Source: Saxidomus purpurata
Lineage: Eukaryota > Mollusca > Bivalvia > Venerida > Veneridae
Direction of reading: 5' to 3'
NCBI GenBank assembly: GCA_022818135.1
Contig: JAFMSR010000031.1
Coordinates: forward strand, 62,001-126,000
Length of the DNA: 64,000 nucleotides
Positions 3,601-58,470 of the stretch are shown in pieces; within the stretch, counting starts at the first letter, position 1; every line of letters begins with the position of its first letter. A program made the translations under genes and the position numbers. The notes below the pieces were generated by a model. It did not search any database. It saw only the letters and a program-made list of their open reading frames with translations, and was not told the origin of the DNA.

Positions 3601-3620
3601 AAGGCTTTTTTTAGAATACA

Positions 3621-4667
3621 ATGGACGAGAGATATCGGAAGGGAAAGCTGGTGGCTATTCTACCGACTATTTTGCAGCCACCACCAGATCATGCCGAAAA
3701 TATGCAACATATTATCGCAATGATCACAGCAATGATGAGCTTGCCTCCATCCCCAGATACTGATATTCGACATCGACTTTTCAGTGAAGATACAAATTCT
3801 TATCAAACAAGAGATGTGTTCGTCGATTTCTCCAGCAATAGGTATCAATTCTATCAAATCACCGGCGAAACACCAGAGACTCTTCTAAGCCTCGTAAACT
3901 TCATCTCACTGAACGCTACAAGAGAACATATACTTTCATCTCGAAACCGTATTTTGCTTTGTTTAATCTGGCTGAGGTCATATCCAACATATCACATGCT
4001 GGCTACAATTTTCGGTGTCAGTGTGCCTACAGTGAAAAATGAAATCAGGACGCTACTTCCCAGTCTTCATAGAAAGTTGAGCTTATACGTACAGTGGCCC
4101 ACAATGGACGAGTGGAGAGCAATGAGACGAGTTTGGTCAAAACTTCCATATGCACTTGGTGCAATAGACGGCACATCACACGAGATATATAGGCCTGAAA
4201 CGGAACCCCAGGAACAATATTATTCAGGACATAGGTGCTACCATGCGATTCACACACAAATCATTATAGACGTGCACGGTGATATTCGTTATGTCGAAAG
4301 CGGTTTTCTCGGTCACACAAACGATGCTCAGCAGTTTGCGTTAATGCGTCAAGTAGGAAATGATTTACTATTTCCAGAACAGTGCTACCTGCTTGGTGAT
4401 AAAATCTATCCCAATCGAGGATCGATAATGACTCCGTATACATCAGCACAGATAGCACGAAAGGGTAGAGAAATGCGGCGTAAATGCTTAAAACTGAACC
4501 GCCGTATGAGGAAATATCGAGTGCTTGTCGAACATGCAATAGGAGATTTAAAGTGTTACAGAGTTATAGGGTCATTATGGCGACACCCGAGAGATTTACT
4601 AGCTTCGGTTGTGAACACTTGTGCTTCACTTGTTTGCCGTCGTAAGAAACTTGAAATAAATATGTAA
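3621..4667 (+). CDS. PIF/Harbinger transposase (HARBI1-like DDE nuclease)
   Basis: An uninterrupted 348-residue ORF encodes a DDE_4-type transposase that would cut and paste the surrounding element. Reading in order: an N-terminal region; a helix-turn-helix-like segment near residues 118-150 (LIWLRSYPTYHMLATIFGVS); the first catalytic Asp in GAIDGTSHEI near residue 188; the second Asp in GFLGHTNDAQQF near residue 235; and the last acidic residue in LVEHAIGDLK near residue 311. The length fits the family (about 340-360 aa). The ATG context is ACAATGG. No frameshift or stop is seen and the catalytic acids are present, so the protein could be functional. Residue numbers are estimates. Confidence 0.93.
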   Translation: MDERYRKGKLVAILPTILQPPPDHAENMQHIIAMITAMMSLPPSPDTDIRHRLFSEDTNSYQTRDVFVDFSSNRYQFYQITGETPETLLSLVNFISLNATREHILSSRNRILLCLIWLRSYPTYHMLATIFGVSVPTVKNEIRTLLPSLHRKLSLYVQWPTMDEWRAMRRVWSKLPYALGAIDGTSHEIYRPETEPQEQYYSGHRCYHAIHTQIIIDVHGDIRYVESGFLGHTNDAQQFALMRQVGNDLLFPEQCYLLGDKIYPNRGSIMTPYTSAQIARKGREMRRKCLKLNRRMRKYRVLVEHAIGDLKCYRVIGSLWRHPRDLLASVVNTCASLVCRRKKLEINM

Positions 4668-4892: not shown

Positions 4893-6390
4893 AGGAAGAA
4901 CCAGAGAAAATCTATTAAAATATCAAAATGTTATAAAAAGTCTAAAAAAGATATAGATCTAGTTCCATCTCGGCTATATGAATCTATAATACTATGTACT
5001 TTAATTAAAACTCTGAAAATATCTTATTCAGCTTACATTAAAATTCTTTACGGTATTGTTTACAATATTCTGACAAAAATTAGCGTGGACTGTCCCAAAG
5101 TATTTCGAGAACTAGAATCCTTGTGTGACAAAAATGCGTTGCTTATATACTATGCAGCGGTAGCAGCTACCCAAAATTGGTAGATATACCCATTTCTGGT
5201 AGAAGCTACCAACTATTGGTAGAGCGATCACTACCCAAAAATGGTGACTACCATGGTAGCTACCAAAAATTGGTACCAAACACCATCAACTAAATAACAA
5301 AAATGGCTATTGACATTTTATGAAAAATCGGACTGCCTAAGTTTAACAATAAACTTCTATAACAAATAAGGTAAAAACCCTTAAGTTAAGTGCTAGAAGG
5401 TAGACAACAGTGACTGAATTATTGGATATTTGCTGAGTCAGAGTTGTCTCTGCTAAAAATATCCCACAATGCAACGGAAAAAAAAGTTACATGGAGGGAA
5501 ATTACAAAAATCAATAACAAACATTTACAATTTAAAGTGATTTAACAATTGAATTAAACATTCAGACTTGGCTTAAATATAGATAAAATGTCATATCATA
5601 TGATGACCTTAACAGAATTAACAGGAATGAAGGAGTTTTAAAAGAATAAATGCAAACACTTGTAAACATAAGGAATCGCGGAGTCATGTTGCTTGACCTA
5701 ATGCCAGGTAGAGAAAAATCAACAGATGAACAAGAGATAGATAATGGTGACCACTATTTGTTTTATGTGTAGGCTGGCTTGCTAAATAACTCAGGTCAGA
5801 ATGCATATTTTATGTATGGTGAGTTGCCACATGCTTCACACGACTAACACGGAGACCTTGAGATAAAATCCTGTGAAATACATCCAGGTAATTTCTAATT
5901 ATAACTTTCATTGAATAGCAGATTTACGTAAACGACAGTTGACTGTACTTAAAGTCAAATTAGACATAAATAACTTTATAACGGGTTTAGTGAAAACCCG
6001 GGTATAACAATATACCTAGCGTATCGAGTGAAACTAACAGTTACTTAACTTGAAATGTGAGTGAAGGCCGATATTATAACTTATTAAACTGTCCCTCTGA
6101 CATAAATTTCGTTTGATTTACTAATGTTATTTTGAAAATAAATTAGCAGTCTCAAAAGTTTCACTGAACTTTTATAAAAGTCGAAACAAAAGACAGTGTA
6201 GGAAATCAGAATCTAAAATCTTCATGCAAAAATAAGTTACAGACCATACATATGTTAAACATATTTTGAAACTAAGTGAGGACAAAATAAACAATTTTAA
6301 AGTGAAACTGAAAACTTTTTATATAATAAAAAGTTGATGAAACCGAAGGTAAATATATAAACAGTGTAAAGATTATACAAAAAACCTTAC
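4893..6390. other. Non-coding stretch, no gene recognised
   Basis: This AT-rich sequence lies between the Harbinger right end and sulfotransferase exon 6. A 99-codon open frame starts at the transposon end, but it has no family resemblance and I do not call it a gene. I searched the minus strand for a last sulfotransferase exon and found none. Confidence 0.5.
5165..5280. repeat. Cluster of short TACC/GGTA palindromic repeats
   Basis: The motif TACCAAAAATTGGTA and variants (ctacccaaaattggtag, ctaccaactattggtag, ctacccaaaaatggtgac, ctaccatggtagctacc) recur at least five times within 120 bp. Each can form a small self-complementary hairpin. Function is unknown. Confidence 0.6.
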
Positions 6391-29103: not shown

Positions 29104-32100
29104 ATGTTTATTTCCAAAATACATTTAGGGTCTATTAATACACAGGGTTTGCAAAGTTCACCAAAACGTTTGAGACGTGTAGAAGGAATAAATCAGCAAA
29201 AAATGGACATAATATTTCTTCAGGAAACACACTTTACATCAGATATAGATCTAGTACAAGCAACTACTATTGATTTCAAACTGTTCGAAATGTACAATTC
29301 ATTCGGCACAAATAAGAGTAAAGGTTGTTCCATACTTGTGTGTAAATCAGTCAACATTGAATACGAAATATTAGACAAACCTTCAGATAGTGATGTAAGA
29401 TACGTTCTCATCTATATTGCTCCAAATGATAAACGTAATCGAAATTTATTTTTCAAATTCATTGACACTACACTTTTGCCATTATCCCAAGGTTTGAAAA
29501 TAATAGGAGGTGACTTTAACGATAAATATACGATTCAGATAGACAGGCACGCTCAAACGAAAAATCAAAAACAGTAGATAATGTTAAAAAGTTAATAAAG
29601 AAACATAAGTTATGCGATATTTGGAAAATAAAAAACTAACAAAATTCAATTCACCTGGAAACGCTTAAATGGTTTCGAAAAAAGTAGAATTGATCATTGG
29701 CTGACAGAAAACAATCTTTCAACATTAATTTGCCACACAGATATACGGCCTGCTCAAATAAAAGATACAGACCATCTTGCAATATCTCTGAAACTCGATA
29801 TTCCAAATAAACGTGGACCTGGTTTCTGGAAACTAAATAACTCGTATTTAGACGATCCTGAGTACTTAACTCTAATTGTTAACACCATCAATTCTGTTGA
29901 AAATAATTTAAGACTTGTTAAAGTAAATCATCACACGATGTTGGAGGTAATATAATACTCCAAAAATAAGACAACTGAACGCCGTAATCGATTATCAATG
30001 TTAGAAAAAGAACTTATTTAGTTAGAAGTTAAATATGAGTTATGCAATTCAAATGACAAAATTGTAAAACGTATTAAGCATTGAATCGGAAATAGAAAAC
30101 ATAATTATACGATATAAAAGTAAAAGGCGCTCAAATACGATCTCGAGCACAACTCATCGACGAAGGCGAAAAAAATTCTAAATACTTTCACTCGCTAGAA
30201 AAATCAAGACAAACAAGAAAAGTCCTTCATTCATAAATTATTGATGGAAAATCAATAACAAAATCCGAAGACGTTCTAAGTGAGGAAGTTAACTTCTACA
30301 GTAATTTATATAAAACTAAAGCTCAAAATACAAATATGGACGAGTATTTTGAAACTGTTAATTTTCCTAAAACACTAAATGAAAAAGATGCTGATATTTG
30401 TGAAGGATTAATAGCACTCGAAGAGTGCGAAGCTGCTCTAACAAGCATGAAAACGAACAAAAGTCCTGGAAATGACGGTCTGGCAATATAATTCTATAGG
30501 ATATTCTGGGACAATTTTAAAACACATACTTATAGACAGCTGTAACGAGACATATTATAAAAAAGACCTATCTGTGACCTAAATGATAGGCATAATCACG
30601 CTCTTGCATAAGAAAGGAGACCCTCAAAACATTGAAAACTGGCGACCCATTTCTTTATTAAATACCGATTATAAAATATTAACACGTGTACTTGCGTATG
30701 TACGTTTACAAAAAATTCTTCCTTCCATAATGAATTCTGACCAACAAGGTTATATTAAAGGTCGTTATATTGGAAACAATATCAGACATATATCAGACAT
30801 AATAGACTGTTGTGATGAAATGCACATTGATGGCGCAATACTTTTTCTGGATTTCCGAAAGGCCTTTGGCACAATTGAACTAGACTTTCTTTTTGAAGCC
30901 CTTAAACATTTCAAATTCAAACCTATGTTTATACAATGGATAAAGTCAATATACTCTAATATATCCTCGTGCATTTTAAACAATGGTTGGATGTCTAATA
31001 GCTTCAGCTTAACACGTGGATTAATACAAGGATGTTGTATATCATCTCTCCTTTTTATAATAGTTGCTGAAATACTAGCAAATAAAATGCGAAGCAATGG
31101 AGATATCTCAGGCATTTCTGTTAAAAACAATGGAAACACAACTAATTTGAAACTGACACAACTTGCTGATGACACAACTTTATTTGTTAAAAACGAACAA
31201 GATATACAAAATGCAATTAAAACAATTAATACCTTTGGTGTATACTCGGGTCTATCATTAAACATAAATCAAACAGAAGGATTATGGATCGGAAACTTAA
31301 AATGTTCAAAAGAAGAAATATGTAACATTAAATGGTCAAAATGTGTTAAAGCGTTAGGAGTCTTCTTCGGAACAAATAAAGATGAATGCAAAATACTTAA
31401 CTGGGCCTCAAAACTAGATACATGCCAAAACATTATTGATCAGTGGAAAAAGCGAAACCTAACACTTTATGGTAAAATTGCAGTCATAAAATCAATGGTG
31501 CTACCAAAGCTAACGTACTTTGTACAGTCACTTACTCTTCCTAAACATATATTAAACGCAATTAATATCATGTTTTACAATTTTATTTGGAATAGCACGC
31601 GCGAAAAAGTCAAAAGAACAATTGTCATAAATAAATTAGAAGATGGGGGTTTAAACATGATCGATCTCGAAAGTTACTCAATAATGCTTCAAATTAAGTG
31701 GGTAACATCTTTACTCTCTTCTAACGAGGCAAATTGGAAAATAATACCGTGGTACTACAAATTTGGCCAAAACTTTCTCGTATTTTACATGAATTTAGAA
31801 ACTATCAAAAGTCTACCTCAAAACATTTTGTCACTACCAAACCTTTACAAAGAGTTATTAAAAAGCTGGATAATGTTTAGAAATATCAATAACACAAACC
31901 ACAATAATTTAGTGAAATACGCAAAGAGTTAATTTGGGGCAATGAATCAATAAAACACAAAAACAAAGGGTTATTTTTTAAAAACTGGATTAACTAAAGC
32001 ATACTGTTATATCAGTGTTACGAAATGCAATATCCAAAGCTTGGAAAATAAAACCGAAATCTGAAAATTCAAAGAAAACGTCAGTAAAAACCTTTTTAAG

Positions 32101-32915
32101 GCCACTTCCATATCAAAATATATCGTTAGATAATATAACGAACAAAACGATTTACAGAACACTCCTCAACAAAAATGCTACAAAGCCCTATATTCACAAA
32201 CTGTGGGAAAACAAATTCATTTTAGAAATACCCTGGTCTAAAACATATCTACAGATAAATGCATGTATTGATAACAGGTACAAACAATTCCGATACAAAG
32301 TGATAAATAACATCGTCCCTACCGGAGAAAATCTTTACAGGTGGAAACTCTCTAGTAATCCCGATTGCAAATTATGTCATACGGTAGATAATATGAAACA
32401 TTTCTTCATTGGCTGTCGCTCACTTCAAGCTTTCTGGAGCAAGATTAGGAACAGCCTTCAAATGTGTGACATAAAAATATTGTCCACTTAAAAACAATTG
32501 TGACAGGATACAATTTCGAAAATCAGAAATATTGGGAATTGAATTTATTAACCACAATAATCGGTTTCAGCATTTATAAAACATTTTTTTTAAGTAAGCA
32601 ACGCTCCGAACCAGTCAATATATCCAACACTTTTTTCAATTAAATAAGCAGAGTAAAAGAATATTTCCAGTTGAAAAGAAAAAAACGTTCCTTTTTTAGC
32701 CAGATTTATCGAATATTATTAATACTAGCACTTGATGATATAGCAAATATATTTCTTTTTGTTTCATGATTTGTTCACTTAAAATACAATCATGACGTTA
32801 ATGTACTTACATAGATTTACACACATTTATTGTTAATATGCAATTGATTGTCAACATTTTGTTAATATGCAAGTGTTAGCATTTATTGGATTTTAATAAA
32901 AAAAGAAAAAAATAT
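29104..32915 (+). pseudogene. Decayed L1-like non-LTR retrotransposon (ORF2: endonuclease and RT)
   Basis: Endonuclease segments lie at 29104-29577 (INTQGLQSS, IFLQETHF, GGDFND) and continue in another frame to RIDHW and TDHLAISL near 29690-29790. RT starts near 30583 and is open for 449 codons: NWRPISLLNTDYKI, FLDFRKAFGTIE, a diverged GCCISSLLF block and the catalytic LADDTTLF. A zinc-knuckle-like C-terminal part (CKLCHTVDNMKHFFIGC) is at 32015-32491. The ~1 kb between 29580 and 30583 has many stops and frame changes. An A-rich tail at 32895-32915 probably marks the 3' end. It is inactive and lies in sulfotransferase intron 1. Confidence 0.88.
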
Positions 32916-48635: not shown

Positions 48636-51600
48636 CAAAATTCTACTTTAAACTGGTGGGTGATGTGTTGTGAACGTTTCAGCGTTTAATTTGGACTATA
48701 TTTATATTAATTGAAATTCTACTATGGACTTTACTTTAAAAAGTAATTTAATTTACTACTTCAGAGGAACTTTAAGTGTTGCTTGATGTATTGATATTCT
48801 GCACCTTGTGAGGCGTAGTTTAGTCAAATCGTTGCTGGATCGGAAAGCTGGACTCTATTTGTATACAGTTAGAAAAATAATACAGGTTATACGTTAAACC
48901 TCTTTTAAAGTCTCAGGACTTACAGGAAAGTCACCTCTTTCCAGGATCATAGTGTTTGGACTATTTCACAAGAAAGAAACCTTTTCTCGGATCACGCTGT
49001 GTAGATATACGATTTCAATAGATGGGAACTTCATACAATTATTTCATGGACGCTATACAATTTACAAGTGCTTTTATAGACACTTCCAAATTTGTGCCAC
49101 GAAGAGACATACTATAAATAGTGATTTAAGTTCTGAAGACTTTGGTTTCTGTAAATTCAAGTTCCAGTGCTGTTCAACAGATGGTGAGTCTGTGTAGCTA
49201 AGCTTATATTTTGCGTTCTGGGATATCATTATTTTGCTTTTCAGTCTAAAGATTGATTTTCAAAATAATGAAAATTTAGTTTTAGAGCATCAATCATTAA
49301 TGACAGAGATGTAGATCGAAAGATAATTGTTAGCTTTCAGCTGTTAAACAAGCCTTACTGTAGATTTACGATAAACTATTGGCATAATATAGTCTTGCTG
49401 TAAAGTTTATACAGTTGTTTTTGCCAGTACATCGTAAACAAGTGAGAATTTTTTTTCTTTCATATTAAAGCATCACTTTTGCTTAAAAATTCAGTATTTG
49501 AAAGAAAGTAAATTTTCTGCAAGCTTTATAGATTAAATTTAACTTTAATCTTAGGTTTTAAATCCCAGACATTTTTTATACATGTGTGAATATTGTATTT
49601 TTTATAGAATGTAAGTGATCACTGCACATTTAACATTTGCATGAGATTTTATTAACATTCTAGATAATATATTTTTCATCTATATTTTCCATCTTTACTC
49701 TTGTTAGTCAAGCAAACTCGGTGACAGAACCTCGGTTTGGTTTGTAAACATTGACAATTCAGTGTGTTTTTGTTTTGATGTGTAGTCTCTGTGGAATTTC
49801 ATTCATAGGGTCAACAAATGTAGTGTTGTGTTTGTAGTGTAGGTCATTAATGGAAAACTTAAGTGTATGACCTCTAGTAACCTTTCAGTGGTATAGTCTG
49901 ATAGGCTAGTTGTTTACAGGTTAGTGTCATAGGTCACAGATATAGGTGAATAGGTAGCACAAAACCTGATAGCATAAATCTATTGAATTTGTTATTGAAA
50001 TATTTTGTTTATTTCAGGAAAAAGAATTTGTACATGAATACATTTTAAACCAAACTGGTTTATTTGTATTTAATTATAGGGTTAGTTTAGCTTACAGGTT
50101 AGCTAAATAAACTTTGTTTATTTGGTTAAATTTTCTTAGAATGCTGTACTTGTTATTGTTTTTTTTTGAAAAAGAAATAATCAAGTTTGTTCGTTTTGAC
50201 TTAAACTAAAGTGAGTCGCTTTGCTTCAACTTAGTCTCTGAAAACAATTTTTTGTTTTTCCTATTGTGTATTCTGAAATTGAGTTATTAATTTCGGTAAA
50301 AGTTGTTTGAAATATAGACTGCAGTGTAGTTTATATTACAAATTACTCAGAATTACGCGTTTTGTTTCAGTTGCCGCGTTGTGTGGTTCTTCGTGACTTA
50401 CTGTGGAAATTGAGAAAATACTTTGTGAAATTAAAGTATACTGACAAGACTACATAGTGCATTAAAAAATAAATTAGATACACATTTGGCAGCTTAAACT
50501 TAAATAAACGTTAGTGCGTCAAGACAGTTTGAACTAAAATAAAAGATGATTTGTTACCAGTAATAATTAAATAAAATTACTTTTCTATGATAGGGTTGTT
50601 AAGTTGATTTAAAATCTAGTAAAAGTGGACTTAGTATAAATTTCACTTTAAATATAAATCATTTAAATTAATAATTTAATATTCACGGTATTATATATAA
50701 ATTATAATAATACAGTTAAAGGTAGTTATAACTAAAGATTACATTAAGGTTGTTCACTTTATATTAAATTAAGGTGGTTCATTTAAGGTAAATTGAATTA
50801 AGGTGATTTTTACAATTAAAATTTAAAAAGGTTAATTGTTTGTTAATTTAATTTAAACGTTAAATGTCATTAAACATTAACAATAATTAACATTAAGGTG
50901 TTAGTTAACTTAAACTTAAATAAAGATTAAAGTTAAAATAAATTAAATGTTTAATTTAATTAAAATAAATTAATAAATTAACATAAGGTTTGTTGCTTAA
51001 CTTAAATTAAATAAATACTAGTTAAGAACAAATTAAAATAGCTAATAGAATTAGTAAGTTAACATTAATTAGAATTTATTTTGTTAAGGTCCTTGTTAAA
51101 TATAAAAATAAATTGAGAAAATGTAATCATTGACAGATTTTTGATAAAATTCAGTCAAATCCTATATTGCAAATATAGTTTATAGCTGCCAAAAATAAAG
51201 TCAATTGAATTTGCACTTGGATATTGTCATACACAAAGGTTGTAAAGTGAATATTATGAACTAGATGGGTGTTCAGTAGAACACTTGTGTCGCCCTCTTA
51301 TGCTTTGTCAGAATAACCAACAATTTTGTGACAAAATCTAAGTGTAAAAAGGGGCATAACTCTCAAATATGAACTTGACCTACAAACTTTGGCGGCATCA
51401 TGACCCTTATGTCATAAGCAATACAATTTAAAAGTCTGATGAAGAAATCTTAAGAAATGGCAAAGTTACAAAAAGTACAAAAAGGGGCATAACTCTGTCA
51501 AATAAGACCTTGACCTACAAAATTTGGCGGTATCACAACCCTTTTGACATAAGCAATATAATTTGAAAGTTTGATAAAGAAATCTTAAGAAATGGCACAG

Positions 51601-52591
51601 TTATAGCAAAAATCTAAGTATATAAAGGGGCATAACTCTGTCAAATATGACCTTGACCTACAAACTTTGGCGGCCTCATGACCCTTATGTCATAAGCAAT
51701 GCAATTTGAAAGTTTGATGAAGAAATCTTAAGAAATGGCAAAGTTATAGCCAACGTTAAGTTTTCATGACAAAATCTAAGTACAAAAAGGGGCATAACTC
51801 GGTCAAATATGACCTTGACCTACAAAATTTGGTGGCATCACAATCCTTTTGACATAAGCAATACAATTTAAAAGTTTGATAAAGAAATCTTAAGAAATGG
51901 CAAAGTTATAGCAAAAATCTAAGTATATAAAGGGGCATAACTCTGTCAAATATGACCTTGACCTATACAATTTGGCGGTATCACGACCCTTATGTCATAA
52001 GCAATACAATTTGAAATTTTGATGAAGAAATCTTAAGAAATGGCAAAGTTATAGCCAACGTTAAGTTTTCGTGACAAAATCTAAGTACAAAAAGGGGCAT
52101 AACTCTGTCAAATATGACCTTGACCTACAAAATTTGGTGGCATCATGACCCTATTGTCATAAGCAATACAATTGTAAAGTTTGATGAAGAAATCTTAAGA
52201 AATGGCAAAGTTATAGCCAACGTTAAGTTTGTGTGACGGACGGACGGACGGACGGACCGACGGACGGACAAAGCGATCCCTATGTATCGCCTTTTCTCCG
52301 AAAGGGCGACACAAAAAGTGTGATCAAGTGAATATTGTGAAATAGTGTTGTGCTACTTTAGTGATCAAGTGAATATTGTGAAATATTGTGATCAAGTGAA
52401 TATTGTGAAATAGTGCTGTGCTGCTTTAGTGCATAGTGAGGTGAATAAACACACATTGTAACTTAAGTGTGGTGAAGTACATTGTGAAGCATACAGAGAA
52501 TTTATTTCACATACAGGCTTCAGTTAATTTATTTTGAATCACATTGAGTGATAGTGACACTTTGATTCGGTGAACATTATAAATTGCAAAA
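48636..52591 (+). other. Long gypsy leader region before gag
   Basis: About 3.9 kb between primer site and gag ATG, far longer than usual even after removing the TIR element at 51285-52314. The part 50560-51110 is extremely AT-rich and built from TTAA/AATTAAGGT-like words. At 52318-52440 the phrase 'gtgatcaagtgaatattgtgaaat' repeats three times, and a related phrase stands just left of the inserted element (51248). No ORF is supported. Confidence 0.55.
51285..52314 (+). mobile_element. Non-autonomous TIR element with alternating tandem units
   Basis: The TIRs are TTGTGTCGCCCT (51285-51296) and AGGGCGACACAA (52303-52314). A small hairpin GTGTTCAGTAGAACAC stands just outside the left end. Six units begin 'ggggcataactctgtcaaatatgaccttgacctacaaa', at spacings of about 133, 142, 162, 142 and 164 bp. 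The longer units contain an extra 'ccaacgttaagttttcgtgac' block. GACGGACGGACGGACGG precedes the right end. Related copies are at 291-703 and 22140-23345. Confidence 0.8.
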
Positions 52592-53659
52592 ATGGCATCA
52601 CCTAAGGAGCCTAAGGAGGATGTTAAACTTACACCTGAGGAAATAACACTTATTCCAGCAGCACGGAAGCTGAAAATAGGAAGTGCAGCAGAATTGAAAA
52701 TGAGGATACCTGATCCACTTCCTACAACTACAGTTATTGAATCTAAGGGTACCTACCCAAAGATATCAACATTTTATGGAGAGAAAGGAAAAGGAGAAGT
52801 CAATTTTAAGACATGGGAGTATGAGGTCAAGTGTCTTATGAGAAAGTACAATGAAGATCAGGTACGTAATGCAGTTCGGCGATCTGTTAGAGGAGAAGCT
52901 GCTGATATACTCCGTCGTCTAGGTGTTAGTGCAGGACTAGCAGATGTCATTAGTAAATTCGAAAGCACCTACGGAGATATTGAAACAAAAGAGTCACTTT
53001 TGAGGAAATTGTACAACTGTGTCCAAGACAAAACTGAGTCTGTAACGTCATACGCTATACGGATAGAAGAATTGTACTCTGAAGGACTACAAACAGGGGC
53101 AATAGCCGGATATAGCGATGCAATTCTAAGTAGTGTTTTTTACCAGGGATTAAAGCCACATATAAAGCAAATGGCTAATTATAAATATGACACCATAAGT
53201 GACTACGATAGATTCAAGATAGAGGTGAGGACGATTGAAAATGACTTGTCACTGGTAGAAAAGGACACAACATGAAAAGCGGCCAATAAAGTAGAGGAGA
53301 AATCGGAACTTAAGGAAGTTAAGGAACTACTTTTGAAGATGGATGCAAGAATACAGATACTTGAAAAAGAAAAGCAAGAAGGAAGCCGCAATACATACTA
53401 CAGACAACCATCCTTCCGAGGAAGTGGTAGAGGACAAAGAGGTAGAGGCTACCAACAACAACATGGAAATAGAGGCAGAGGATCCTACCAACAATCAAGA
53501 CCAACAGCTGGCAATACGTTTAAACCTGAAAGGAATCAAGACAACAACACTCGGGGAAACAACAGTCAAGGTTATTACAATCAACGCCGAGGAGGATGTT
53601 ACAACTGTTGACAAGAAGGTCACATTGCTAAGTTCTGCCAGGAACAGGGAAACTTTTAA
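52592..53659 (+). pseudogene. Ty3/gypsy gag with two in-frame TGA codons
   Basis: One frame runs from ATG 52592 to TAA 53657-53659. It encodes a capsid-like region (FKTWEYEVKCLMRKY, YNCVQDKTESVTSYAIRIEE, VFYQGLKPHIKQMANY), a coiled stretch (LKEVKELLLKMDARIQILEK), an RGG-rich nucleic-acid-binding part and a CCHC zinc knuckle (CYNC, 4, H, 4, C). TGA codons interrupt at 53273-53275, after the capsid, and at 53609-53611, inside the knuckle right after CYNC. Gag forms the particle that packages element RNA. The second stop removes half the knuckle, so this copy is disabled unless stops are read through. Confidence 0.85.
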
Positions 53660-53951
53660 GTGCCTCTGTAACAGGACCAAACGCGCACACTGATAACAAA
53701 GGTCCACAACTTGTAGGCAATTCAACTGAAGCTGATGTTAAAGTCAACAACATAGAAACCAATGCACTAATAGATACAGGAAGCTGTATTAGCTACATCA
53801 GTGAAACTTTTTATAGGGATCATCTCAAAGATATGGAGATTAAACCACTTCAAGATATTATTAATGTGGAATGTGCTGACGGTAGTAAACTTCCGTATGT
53901 GGCTACATCGAAACATCGTTATAAACAGCTGGTATACCTCGGTCAAAGGAA
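53660..53951 (+). pseudogene. Ty3/gypsy protease part, interrupted by the Penelope-like insertion
   Basis: In a frame different from gag, ALIDTGSCISYIS (about 53765-53805) is the aspartic protease active-site region (DTG). DGSKLPYV follows at 53880-53905. A one-base loss near 53899 and a TAA shortly after break the frame before the insertion point near 53950. The homologous sequence resumes at about 56280, right of the inserted element. Confidence 0.75.
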
Positions 53952-54045
53952 AAACACAAAAATAATATCAAACAGGGAATGCCACGTACCAAAAACGCAG
54001 CCTCCCCAAAACGAGCCCCACAGCACCCAGAAGTGCACACCACCA

Positions 54046-54120
54046 ACACACACACACACACACACGCACACACGCACACACGCACACACGCACACAACAC
54101 ACACAACACACACACACACA
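54046..54120. repeat. (CA)n-rich microsatellite within the Penelope-like 3' UTR
   Basis: CACACA interrupted by CGCACA and CAACACA. The same unique sequences (GTGCACACCACCAACACAC on one side, 'accaacacacacaagcatacaaagc' on the other) flank the tracts at 6.9 and 33.5 kb. Confidence 0.85.
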
Positions 54121-54529
54121 ATCATGTACACACACAAACATACACTACCAACACACACAAGCATACAAAGCAAACACACGAGGACAAAACGAACAATTAA
54201 CGGAACACAGTGGGGCACCGCCTTGGAACGGTCAGTGGCAAAAACACCACTGGGGAGCTTAAACCGGTTTATGGTGCGCACCCAACCTCACTCTTACCCC
54301 CACCATGTTCCAAAGTCACAGGACAGTGTAAATAAAAGTAATCCCTGCTAGGTGAATCTCTAACACACGCAATGAAAACAAAAGGCATGGTATGTAAAAC
54401 ACAAAAATGCTCGTGTATAAATATACAAAAAAAGCAAACCTTGAGAACCAAAAAACGTATGTACTCAATGCATTTGCAGAAGGCAGAGCACCAAGAGAAA
54501 CACCCTTAAGGGCCCGACGAAACAGGCCA

Positions 54530-54593
54530 GAGGACAGAAATCAAAACAGTTTCGTCCCAGTGGGATTTAAAAACTGCCCATCACAGAGTCCTC
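54530..54593 (-). promoter_or_regulatory. SECIS-like element (type II), selenocysteine insertion signal
   Basis: On the minus strand, read in order: helix I arm GAGGAC (54593-54588); internal loop TCTG; quartet TGAT (54583-54580); helix II arm GGGCAGTTT plus TT; unpaired AAA (54568-54566); mini-helix TCCC-ACT-GGGA; CG; helix II return AAACTGTTT; quartet TGAT (54543-54540); loop TTCT; helix I return GTCCTC (54535-54530). The UGA/GA quartet, 11 nt from quartet to AAA, and the extra apical helix are the defining features of eukaryotic type II SECIS. It starts about 12 nt after the RT stop codon. The first core base is G rather than the usual A. Folding was done by eye. Confidence 0.8.
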
Positions 54594-54604
54594 CCCCTCT
54601 TCCG

Positions 54605-56129
54605 TCAGACACAATCAAAGAAGGAAGCATAGCGTCCAACTGTAAACGGGTTGAACACCAAACATGCGGTGTGTCTCAAAACAGTAGGGTCGTAACCTCT
54701 TTTAACAAAACGTTTTATAACTTTAGCAAATACAGTTGGAAAATTGCCATGACCCAAAATCTTACGAAGTTTGTAAACCACATCCCCATAGAACTCGGGT
54801 TTTGAAATACCTTCTCGCAGAAGAGTCTTTAGATTACTATTGAATTTCAAAACCAAATCAGAATTACGATAGTAAAATTTAGCAAAATATTTACGCAATT
54901 TGTAATAACGGTAGCCCTGTTGAAGAAGTTTATTTGTAATATATTGATTACGTTCATTGAAATCCTCAACATGACTACACGCTCTGGCAAACCGAATTAA
55001 CTGAGAAATGTATACCCCATAAGATGTAGCATGAGGTACATCCCCATCCAAATGGGGGAAATTTACAATACTAAAATTAAAATCATCCCTCTTGTCATAA
55101 ATTTTGGTATGTATAATATTGTTATAAATAGAGAGATGTAAATCTAAAAATGAAGCACCAGTATCCAAATTGTTAGTTTTAATTAACTGGAGTTCCCGGG
55201 GATAAATAGTGTCCACCAATTGACCAAAAAGCGGGTTATCCATATTAAGAATATCATCCAGATAGCGTGATGTATTATTAAAAGCAGTGATAATGTCTGC
55301 CTGCGTATCTGGAGAAAGACTCAACATAAAGTCTCTTTCATAACAATATAAAAACAAATCTGCGACAAGGGGTGCACAATTTGTTCCCATGGGAATACCG
55401 ATTACTTGTCTGAAAACTGCATTCCCAAACCTTATATAAATGTTGTTCAATAAAAAGGAAAGGGCTTTACAAACTTCGTCACAGGTCCACATAGTATAAT
55501 GTTTAACAATACAGCCAGTAAAAAAAGCTTTATCGAAATTGCAGGCGAGAAATGTAGCATTCTCCCTGGCAAAAGTCTTTTGAATTAGGGCAGTTAGCTT
55601 GTCATTTATCAAATTATGTGGTAAAGTGGTATACAGAGTAGAAAAATCGTATGTACTGACTGAAGTTACTTTGTAATTATTAACTTTAAACTTATCCAGG
55701 ATTTCGCCAGAATTTTTGATCGACCAAAATAAATGTTTACCAGAGTTTTCGTATACTTTATCACAATATCTTTTCACGTGGGCTTTTATAGCAGTTAGGC
55801 AAGATGTTAATAGTTTTGAAATATTTGTAGTGGTACAAGAGCTTGAATTAGCGATGAAACGAGCTTTATATGGTTGTTTATGTAATTTAGGAATCCAGTA
55901 CATAGTAGGAAGTTTAATATGTTGATCATCTATACGAACTTTCAAATTAGAAACTTCACTGATGTGATCAGTGACCACATTTTGTTCAACGGAAGGACTC
56001 AATATATAAGCTTTAGTGCTATTTAGTTCGTTTTGTAAAACATTAATATAATGTAGGCGTCAAATGATGATAATATTGTTGGCCGCCTTGTCTGCTGGAA
56101 CTAAGACATACTTAGAATGAAATTCCAAG
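54605..56129 (-). CDS. Penelope-like reverse transcriptase, 5'-truncated, one in-frame UGA (candidate Sec)
   Basis: The frame is open from the junction near 56129 to TGA 54607-54605 except for UGA at 56062-56060. In order: EFHSKYVLVPADKAANNIII, [UGA], RLHYINVLQNELN; YWIPKLHKQPYKARFIANSS (finger region); STYDFSTLYTTLPHNL (catalytic Asp, motif A); IGIPMGTNCAPLVADLFLYC (motif B); SRYLDDILN (YLDD, motif C); DTGASFLDLHL; and a C-terminal thumb part ending NPFTVGRYASFFDCV. These are Penelope-like RT motifs. The enzyme copies element RNA into DNA at a nicked target. The UGA falls where relatives, as I recall them, have a Cys or Trp. All catalytic residues are present. The N-terminus is missing. Confidence 0.88.
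56060..56062 (-). other. In-frame UGA, candidate selenocysteine codon
   Basis: This is the only stop in a ~508-codon frame. It lies about 1.45 kb upstream of a SECIS-like structure in the same transcript. The frame and the family motifs continue on both sides (PADKAANN before, RLHYIN after). Ordinary nonsense mutation is the alternative. Confidence 0.6.
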
Positions 56130-56207
56130 GCGGTGCCCCACTGTGTTCCTTTAATTGTTCGTTTTGTCCTCGTGGCATTCCCTGTTTGATATTATTTTTG
56201 GTTTTAA

Positions 56208-58470
56208 AGTAAACTTGGGTTTTGATGGAAGTAGGTGTTCATTTGTTTGGTAAAATTTTATACGAGAATCGGCAATGTTAAAAACACTTGTTTATTTTTG
56301 ATAACACCAGAGACAGCATACAGTAAAACTACACCAATACTTATTGGCACAAACATATTGAAAGAACTTTTAAATGACTGCAAGAAAAGTTTTGGAGAGA
56401 CATATTTACAAAGAGCAGGTCTACTAACTCCATGGTATTTGGCGTTTAGGTGTATGGCTTTAAGAGACAAGGAACTTAGAAGGAACAAAGACCGTCTTGC
56501 TTTTGTTCGAAGTGCTGAAAAAGGAATGTCATCATTGAACCAAACTCTACAGTCAATATTAGGGCTTTCACTGATAATGAGATAGATCATGTGCCAACTA
56601 ATGCCATCATACAGGAAACAGAAGAGTGCATATTCAACAATTGAATTGACGTTACTCCTTCTGTTATACGTTATAACTACAAGAACAATTGAGAAATTAC
56701 AGTGAATGTTTCAAACCTGTCAACAAAAACAGTAAGTGTGCCACCTAGAACAGTCATATCAGAACTTCAGCCTGTTCAAATAGATGAAAGTGTGTTTGAA
56801 AAACTGGAAGAAGAAACAGATGCTGACATTCTAAAAGAGATACACATCAATTCTACTTTAACTTTTGAACAAGATATCAATTGAAACACCTTCTCGAAAC
56901 ACATAGGAATATGTTTTCAACAAGTGATATTGACATAGGGAAATGCGATGAAATCAAACATAGGATAGACAAACGAAGTACCATTTAAACAATGACATCG
57001 AAGAATCCCTCCAACTATGATAGAAGAAGTTCGACAACATATAGAACAATTACTTGCAGCTGGTGTAATACAAAAGTCTAAATCCCCATGGGCATCGAAC
57101 GTTGTGCTAGTACGAAAGAAAAATGGCAAACTAAGAATGTGTATTGATTACAGAATGCTCAACAAAAGGACAATAAAGGATGCTTATGCACTACCCAGAA
57201 TTGAAGATGTCTTTGACTAAAGGAGCTAAAATGTTTAGAACAATAGATATGAAAGCAGGTTATCATCAAGAAGAAGTGGAAGAAGATCACAAACAACGAA
57301 CAGCTTTTACCGTAGGACCTTTAGGATTTTATGAGTACGTAAAGATGCCTTTTGGTTTATCTAATTCTCCGGCATCATACCAAAGACTTATGGGAGAGTG
57401 TTTGGGAGATTTCAACATGACCATATTATTTACCTTGATGACCTGATAGTATTCTCTGAGAACTTTGAACAACATCTTTAAAGGCTAGACATAATTTTAA
57501 CAAGGTTACATGACTGTGGATTAAAGCTTTCACCAGATTAGTGCTACTTTCTGCAAAAAAGAGTCAAATTTTTGGGCCATGTGGTTAGTGAAGATGGTGT
57601 GGAAACTGACCTAGACAGGATTGATAAAGTCAGGAATTTGCCAAGACCCAACAACGCAGATGAACTTAGATCTTTCTTAGCATTTGCTGGGTATTACAGA
57701 AGATTTGTCAAAGATTTAAGCAAGATAGCAAAACCTCTGAATGATTTACTGCCTCCAACATCAAAGAAAAGAATTCTAAACCTGAGAAACCATGGATTTG
57801 GAAAGAGATTAAATAGAAGACATTTGAACATTTGAAAGAAATACTGACGTCACCTCCAATCCTAGCATACCCAGATTTCTCACTTCCATTTGAACTTCAT
57901 ATAGACGCTTGCATAACTAGACTTGGAGCTGTACTTTATATGGTTGATAAAGACAATAAGAAAAGAGTTATTTCATATGCCAGTAAGAGTCTATCTAAAT
58001 CAGAGAGACATTATCCAGCCTTTAAATTGGAGTTCCTTTGTTTAAAATGGGCTGTTACAGAAAACTTCAGCGACTACCTCACAGGTCATCATTTTACAGT
58101 CTACACAGACAACAACCCTTTGACACATGTGCTTACTACGGCTAAATTAGACGCAGCTGGCCATAGATGGACATCAGCTCTGGCAAATTATGACTTTGAT
58201 ATTTTCTATCGACAAGGATTGAAAAACACGGATGCTGATGCTATGTCCAGATATCCTCATCACAAGTTGTCAAATGAAGGTAAAGACTTCATCAAGTTGG
58301 AAAGCGATGCTGTCAGAGACATTTGTAATTCAGTGCATGTGGAAAGATTAATTGATATTCTCCCAGCTGCATCTATTAACATTATAGAAGCAACTGAATC
58401 AACAGGACAGCAAATGGCTCAAATTGAACTACGAGAGATTCGAAAAGCACAAAGAGAGGACTTTCTCATA
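56208..58470 (+). pseudogene. Ty3/gypsy pol: protease end, reverse transcriptase, RNase H
   Basis: The interrupted polyprotein resumes with LFLITPETAYSKTTPILIGT near 56300 and continues through TVSVPPRTVI (about 56730). RT begins near 57017 ([29 protein letters not shown]), then MFRTIDMKAGYHQ (motif A Asp), FGLSNSPASYQRLM (motif B) and YLDDLIVFS at about 57430 (motif C, seen only in a shifted frame), then FLGHVVSEDGVETD. RNase H follows at 57832-58260 (FELHIDAC, LEFLCLKWAV, VYTDNNPLTH, DADAMSRYP). Stops or frameshifts occur near 56700, 56884, 57218, 57416, 57480, 57540 and 57790, so the copy is dead. The catalytic motifs themselves are still readable. Confidence 0.88.

Follow-up and report, generated by a model that had tools for sequence, protein, structure and literature searches.

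Elements of the Penelope group are expected to encode a reverse transcriptase (RT) that resembles telomerase. Within this group, the Naiad elements reportedly carry an N-terminal GIY-YIG nuclease and a CxC linker, traits ascribed to a description by Craig et al. of 2021, which is also said to have presented those of spiders and clams as selenoproteins containing multiple selenocysteines; an insertion bias for microsatellites is reportedly a further trait of the group. Known selenoproteins are mostly redox enzymes. In their synthesis, a SECIS element recruits a SECIS-binding protein and a selenocysteine (Sec)-specific elongation factor, upstream UGAs are read as Sec, and one situated right next to the SECIS acts as a stop. 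Canonical Penelope and Poseidon elements are described by a telomerase-related RT, a GIY-YIG nuclease and a pseudo-LTR or partial-tandem structure (PMC11167929).

Here, we analysed a stretch of 64,000 nucleotides from the clam Saxidomus purpurata (the window, 64 kb). Judged from sequence, it contains a 5′-truncated copy of a Penelope-like retrotransposon whose open reading frame is very probably decoded as a selenoprotein, a reading to which we assign a probability of about 0.93. Selenoprotein Naiads have reportedly been described before; the present analysis provides codon counts across genomic copies, maps three proposed Sec sites and finds the copy in the window defective. Among the papers listed in searches of a limited collection, none dealt with selenocysteine in Penelope-like elements.

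Layout of the element and comparison with known systems

The element is ordered as GIY-YIG nuclease, CxC linker, RT and stop. As full-length reference we used the 1063-codon frame of another copy in the same genome (L013), which reads NCGIQYVGQTGRSLKIRFREH...AEFKWIKNLQS before the RT; its GIY-YIG motif was recognised by eye and its linker is YCEC. Pfam gave no GIY-YIG match in the L013 protein itself, six N-terminal relatives out of 33 matched PF01541 with E ≤ 0.1, the lowest value being 1.3e-4, and a structure model of the N-terminal part (pLDDT 69) had no useful fold match. Among 163 relatives covering the linker, the motif is CxC in 76, WxC in 48, RxC in 13, LxC in 10, SxC in four and of other composition in 12. 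For the RT, there was no Pfam match above the cutoff, and profiles of the RT and of the N-terminal part found nothing when searched against PDB sequences; the nearest folds of the RT model (mean pLDDT 79.5) are telomerase reverse transcriptases, a match that concerns the overall fold rather than the insertion-in-fingers domain.

The Saxidomus element resembles Naiad, as the latter is said to be built, in its N-terminal GIY-YIG nuclease, its CxC linker, an RT without C-terminal nuclease, partial tandem copies and several proposed selenocysteines. The partial-tandem arrangement is found in five of the 38 genomic loci that were fetched (L013, L022, L027, L032 and L038), where the longer copy has a partial one upstream of it; the partial copy runs into a stretch of 60 bases, the same each time, which would represent the start of the downstream copy. 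Unlike the microsatellite bias reported for Naiad, the 3′ flanks show none: none of 40 copies has a repeat of at least six units within 150 nt of 3′ flank, whereas 40 such repeats occur among 2668 control stretches taken from outside the element, counts that speak against a strong microsatellite insertion bias on the 3′ side. By layout and motifs, the element nevertheless appears to fit the Naiad Penelope-like elements, and the assignment to this group in a preliminary description of the sequence is supported by the layout together with three internal UGAs.

With canonical Penelope and Poseidon elements, the Saxidomus element shares the telomerase-related RT, the GIY-YIG nuclease and the pseudo-LTR/partial-tandem structure, but its nuclease is N-terminal whereas theirs is C-terminal. 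Also unlike these elements, and like Naiad as reportedly described, it shows no hammerhead ribozyme, no such family reaching the Rfam gathering score in the 38 loci. Compared to eukaryotic selenoprotein genes with a type II SECIS (RF00031), it similarly has an in-frame UGA at a position that can hold Cys and a SECIS above the gathering score in the 3′ UTR. In contrast to those genes, it is not a host redox enzyme but a retrotransposon frame with three UGAs and thousands of first-look candidate copies.

The copy in the window

On the minus strand of the window, a Penelope-like RT frame extends over 54605–56122 with one internal UGA at 56062–56060. Downstream of this codon, 484 open codons (54608–56059) lead to a terminator UGA (54607–54605), while upstream the frame comprises just 20 codons (56063–56122). 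The preliminary description had reported an RT frame of about 508 codons broken only by this UGA; the codon is indeed present in the RT frame, and the claim holds for 54608–56122 but not beyond, where a rearranged segment contains an in-frame TAA. From left to right, the features are the following:

53632–53957, plus strand: interrupted left part of the frame of a host Ty3-like retrotransposon, identified by eye as its protease region; from its open reading frame and the joined flanks
53950–53957, plus strand: target-site repeat AAAAACAC, left copy; an 8-bp direct match flanking the insertion
53958–56279, minus strand: insertion of a Penelope-like element, 5′-truncated, 2322 bp, with a boundary uncertain by a few bases (GTTTTT is common to the 3′ ends of most copies); from the 8-bp target repeat, joined flanks and homologous copies
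54036–54159, minus strand: GT-rich microsatellite in the 3′ tail of the element, differing between copies; from the repeat and copy comparison
54177–54228, minus strand: segment of the 3′ tail with an inverted copy at 56123–56174; from the inverted repeat
54531–54592, minus strand: SECIS of the AAA type with apical mini-helix (type II); from Rfam, folding, our own descriptor and other copies
54605–54607, minus strand: UGA serving as terminator, at codon 1063 in the full-length element; TGA in 34/34 long copies
54605–56059, minus strand: RT frame downstream of the internal UGA, 484 codons and stop; from homologs and a predicted fold nearest to telomerase RT
56060–56062, minus strand: in-frame UGA proposed to encode selenocysteine, corresponding to codon 578 in the full-length element; from comparison with other copies
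56063–56122, minus strand: 20 upstream codons in the same frame, FHSKYVLVPADKAANNIIII; from in-frame reading
56123–56205, minus strand: rearranged segment that breaks the frame and consists of the 3′ end of the element copied in inverted orientation; from self-complementarity and copy comparison
56206–56279, minus strand: fragment coding for part of the RT N-terminus, where the 5′ truncation falls; from comparison with other copies
56280–56287, plus strand: target-site repeat AAAAACAC, right copy; an 8-bp direct match flanking the insertion
56288–56390, plus strand: the same Ty3-like frame continued, CLFLITPETAYSKTTPILIG...; from the joined flanks

Joining the flanks across the insertion yields an open frame of the host Ty3-like retrotransposon. 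The 5′ truncation of the inserted copy falls inside the N-terminal region of the RT, and the rearranged segment consists of a 52-nt arm that is 98% complementary to 54177–54228 and a 46-nt arm that is 85% complementary to 53952–53997. This segment is missing from all 34 other copies whose alignment spans the place, so that the inverted repeat was ruled out as the 5′ terminus of the element; the inverted piece of 3′ tail rather looks like a template switch during insertion. Being 5′-truncated and interrupted within the RT frame by an inverted part of its own 3′ end, the window copy is to be regarded as dead.

An intron at the UGA site was also considered and ruled out, because database proteins stop exactly at this codon without extra residues and the window frame runs on directly. 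Elsewhere in the window, a tandem satellite with units mostly 143 and 162 bases apart occupies 51324–52239, a 350-aa frame at 3615–4667 (plus strand) resembles a Harbinger-type transposase by eye, and frames that likewise resemble, by eye, a LINE endonuclease and reverse transcriptase lie in pieces at 29104–32491 (plus strand).

UGA codons and SECIS across genomic copies

The genome assembly comprises 1.135 Gb in 4232 contigs. First-look searches gave 2340 candidates at the DNA level and 3931 at the protein level, of which 40 and 71 were scored, respectively, and 38 loci were fetched. At the UGA site, 40 alignments representing 39 other copies (L034 aligned twice) showed TCA in L036 and TGA in the 38 others, and none of the 39 had TGT, TGC or TGG. 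The 484-codon RT frame is free of other stops and indels in 37 of the 39 copies, the exceptions being L024 (frameshift) and L042 (TAA). Aligned to L013, the 34 long copies have TGA at codon 140 in 15/15 readable cases, at codon 151 in 16/16, at codon 578 in 33/34 and, as terminator, at codon 1063 in 34/34. Counted by aligned codon with indels ignored, the only further stops in these copies are one TGA at codon 166 and one TAG at codon 206, each in a single copy. The N-terminal half is frameshifted in several copies; six of 12 copies that were read directly contain all three UGAs in one unbroken frame down to the terminator.

The copies are 94–98% identical to the window copy over long alignments. 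Their coding sequence is conserved on both sides of the in-frame UGA, and amino acid changes are fewer than would arise in the absence of selection: 110 of the differences are non-synonymous and 70 synonymous, where 130.5 and 44.7 are expected (ratio 0.54). Among 36 copies, there are 34 distinct 3′ flanks; L011/L012 and L040/L041 are each the same insertion on different contigs, and their identical flanks suggest duplicate haplotype contigs in the assembly. Because the copies are young and two pairs are the same insertion, conservation among copies does not constitute many independent tests. In L036, the copy with TCA, the rest of the RT frame is intact and a tRNA-Ser (cga) is located nearby at 4957–5038.

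The SECIS (54592–54531) begins 12 nt past the RT terminator. It matches SECIS_1 (RF00031) at 38.7 bits, above the gathering score of 35; the E value is 0.00031 when the whole 64-kb window and every Rfam family are counted, and 2.4e-06 in a 501-base stretch. No other Rfam family reaches its gathering score anywhere in the window; relaxing the threshold to E ≤ 5 adds three other families, all with E ≥ 2.8. Folding of this strand gave the layout put forward in the preliminary description at −28.4 kcal/mol (z −2.19), with seven of 200 shuffles folding equally well. Our own type II descriptor, applied to both strands of the 64 kb, found exactly one site, which is the SECIS, with 10 pairs in helix II and seven in helix I. 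In 100 dinucleotide-shuffled windows, the descriptor found a mean of 0.6 sites per window, and four sites in total had at least 10 pairs in helix II and at least six in helix I. The SECIS reaches the gathering score in 35 of the 38 genomic loci (19/20 and 16/18), the remaining three scoring 34.1, 33.0 and 32.5 bits, below the cutoff of 35, and it scored 38.7 bits in all of four further stretches. The element 12 nt after the stop, as claimed beforehand, was substantiated by Rfam in the window and in most loci. Over the 89 nt past the stop, 25 of 34 copies match L013 at every position and the other nine have small differences; the SECIS hardly varies among copies, which leaves little room for compensatory changes to show.

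These data bear on whether the UGA is simply a premature stop in a decaying copy, accompanied by a SECIS-like hairpin that arose by chance. The window copy is truncated and rearranged, as such a history would predict, and equally strong hairpins turned up four times in 100 shuffled windows, but the recurrence of this UGA in 38 of 39 copies, two further fixed UGAs, a SECIS at threshold in 35 of 38 loci and database relatives that end exactly at the codon render this explanation extremely improbable. Alternatively, the UGAs could be read through without selenocysteine, or could only end short nuclease-side products at a fixed ratio to the EN-RT product (compare gag-pol), the SECIS being incidental. 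Termination at UGAs before the nuclease and before the RT would indeed part functional units; however, a complete SECIS 12 nt past the terminator is needed for selenocysteine decoding and not for general readthrough, and two of the UGA positions can be Cys in relatives, as would be expected of Sec but not of an arbitrary residue. We therefore consider readthrough of this type very improbable, if somewhat less so than chance decay.

The pattern supports the claim of the preliminary description that the UGA is a selenocysteine codon, on the strength of TGA in 38 of 39 copies, the absence of TGT, TGC and TGG among them and the SECIS at threshold in 35 of 38 loci; the single copy with TCA at the site and the N-terminal frameshifts in several copies count against the selenoprotein reading. 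In this reading, the element is a Penelope-like retrotransposon, abundant and active until recently, with one 1063-codon frame for GIY-YIG nuclease, CxC linker and telomerase-like RT, and its 3′ UTR SECIS would recruit the host SECIS-binding protein and the elongation factor with Sec-tRNA. The UGAs at codons 140, 151 and 578, all at a long distance upstream of the SECIS, would be read as selenocysteine, and the UGA at codon 1063, 12 nt before the SECIS, would end translation. The product would be the full nuclease-RT with Sec at positions 140, 151 and 578, and Sec insertion may be needed for transposition or may simply be tolerated.

The family would belong to a type of mobile element that is already known, though little studied, and that appears to rely on the selenium machinery of its host, and a replication enzyme with three selenocysteines would link mobile-element activity to selenium and host Sec machinery. 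More speculatively, and in our view rather doubtfully, the UGAs might act as a selenium-gated switch, with only N-terminal fragments produced at low selenium and the full nuclease-RT at sufficient supply; transposition of a family with thousands of candidates would then track the selenium supply of the host. With 2340 and 3931 first-look candidates, a single genome offers a testable system.

Protein relatives and the reading of UGA

Protein searches accepted proteins of 0.55–1.75 times the query length and the best 120 were listed, so that the counts given here are not frequencies; because of this length filter, full-length Cys variants are mostly missed and the distribution of database ends is biased. 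Among the 120 matches listed for an N-terminal query, 48 end exactly one residue before the UGA site, 19 have Trp, six Cys, two Phe and one Arg there, and 44 end or align elsewhere; the Phe and Arg rows and one Cys row (P0170) look frame-shifted. Of the 120 matches listed for a second N-terminal query, 67 end exactly at the UGA site and 37 just before the first Cys of CxC, at residue 213 of P0166, and some relatives probably use UGA at this fourth place, where the Saxidomus family has Cys. Codon 578 is Cys in 12 of 17 relatives counted as covering it among the 120 listed, although one, P0070, is not a credible alignment. Codon 151 is Cys in P0272, and codon 140 is reached by two relatives only, both with Trp. 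In P0295 and P0320, Trp occupies both positions that are UGA before the nuclease in the Saxidomus element.

A different genetic code in the host or the element, in which UGA stands for Trp, would account for the several database relatives with Trp at exactly the UGA sites. Yet UGA is also the terminator in 34/34 copies, and Trp at the RT site accompanies Trp at the CxC site in 23/23 rows in which both are known, while near-identical proteins start just past the site, as if code 4 had been used on some contigs; a deviant code is therefore very unlikely. Nine proteins that start two codons past the site are 94.7–98.8% identical to P0036, which has Trp there. Trp at the UGA sites of relatives probably reflects UGA translated with genetic code 4 by a gene caller, TGG being also possible. 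Trp exactly at proposed Sec sites is seen in P0036, P0295, P0320, P0083 and others, with near-identical entries that begin just past the site. The tree of relatives includes 131 of 338 proteins, leaving out 150 that are short, 55 without readable state and two with F or R.

Several pairs of N- and C-terminal proteins agree in contig size and source, as expected if each pair were one gene split by the UGA on what would be the same contig. In addition, among 22 N-terminal proteins with the nuclease motif MQYVGQT, 16 begin precisely at its M-QYVG, perhaps due to an upstream UGA. Gene callers truncate selenoproteins of this kind at UGA or seem to render UGA as Trp, which results in split or mis-read database entries.

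Searches of viral contigs, bacterial genome contigs and plasmids yielded no usable DNA relative. The lone locus that they returned (L001) is an RT fragment, 43% identical and without SECIS at threshold; this Penelope-like fragment (208–597) lies on a contig filed under a Candidatus Thioglobus MAG, which is probably animal-host DNA in a bacterial bin.
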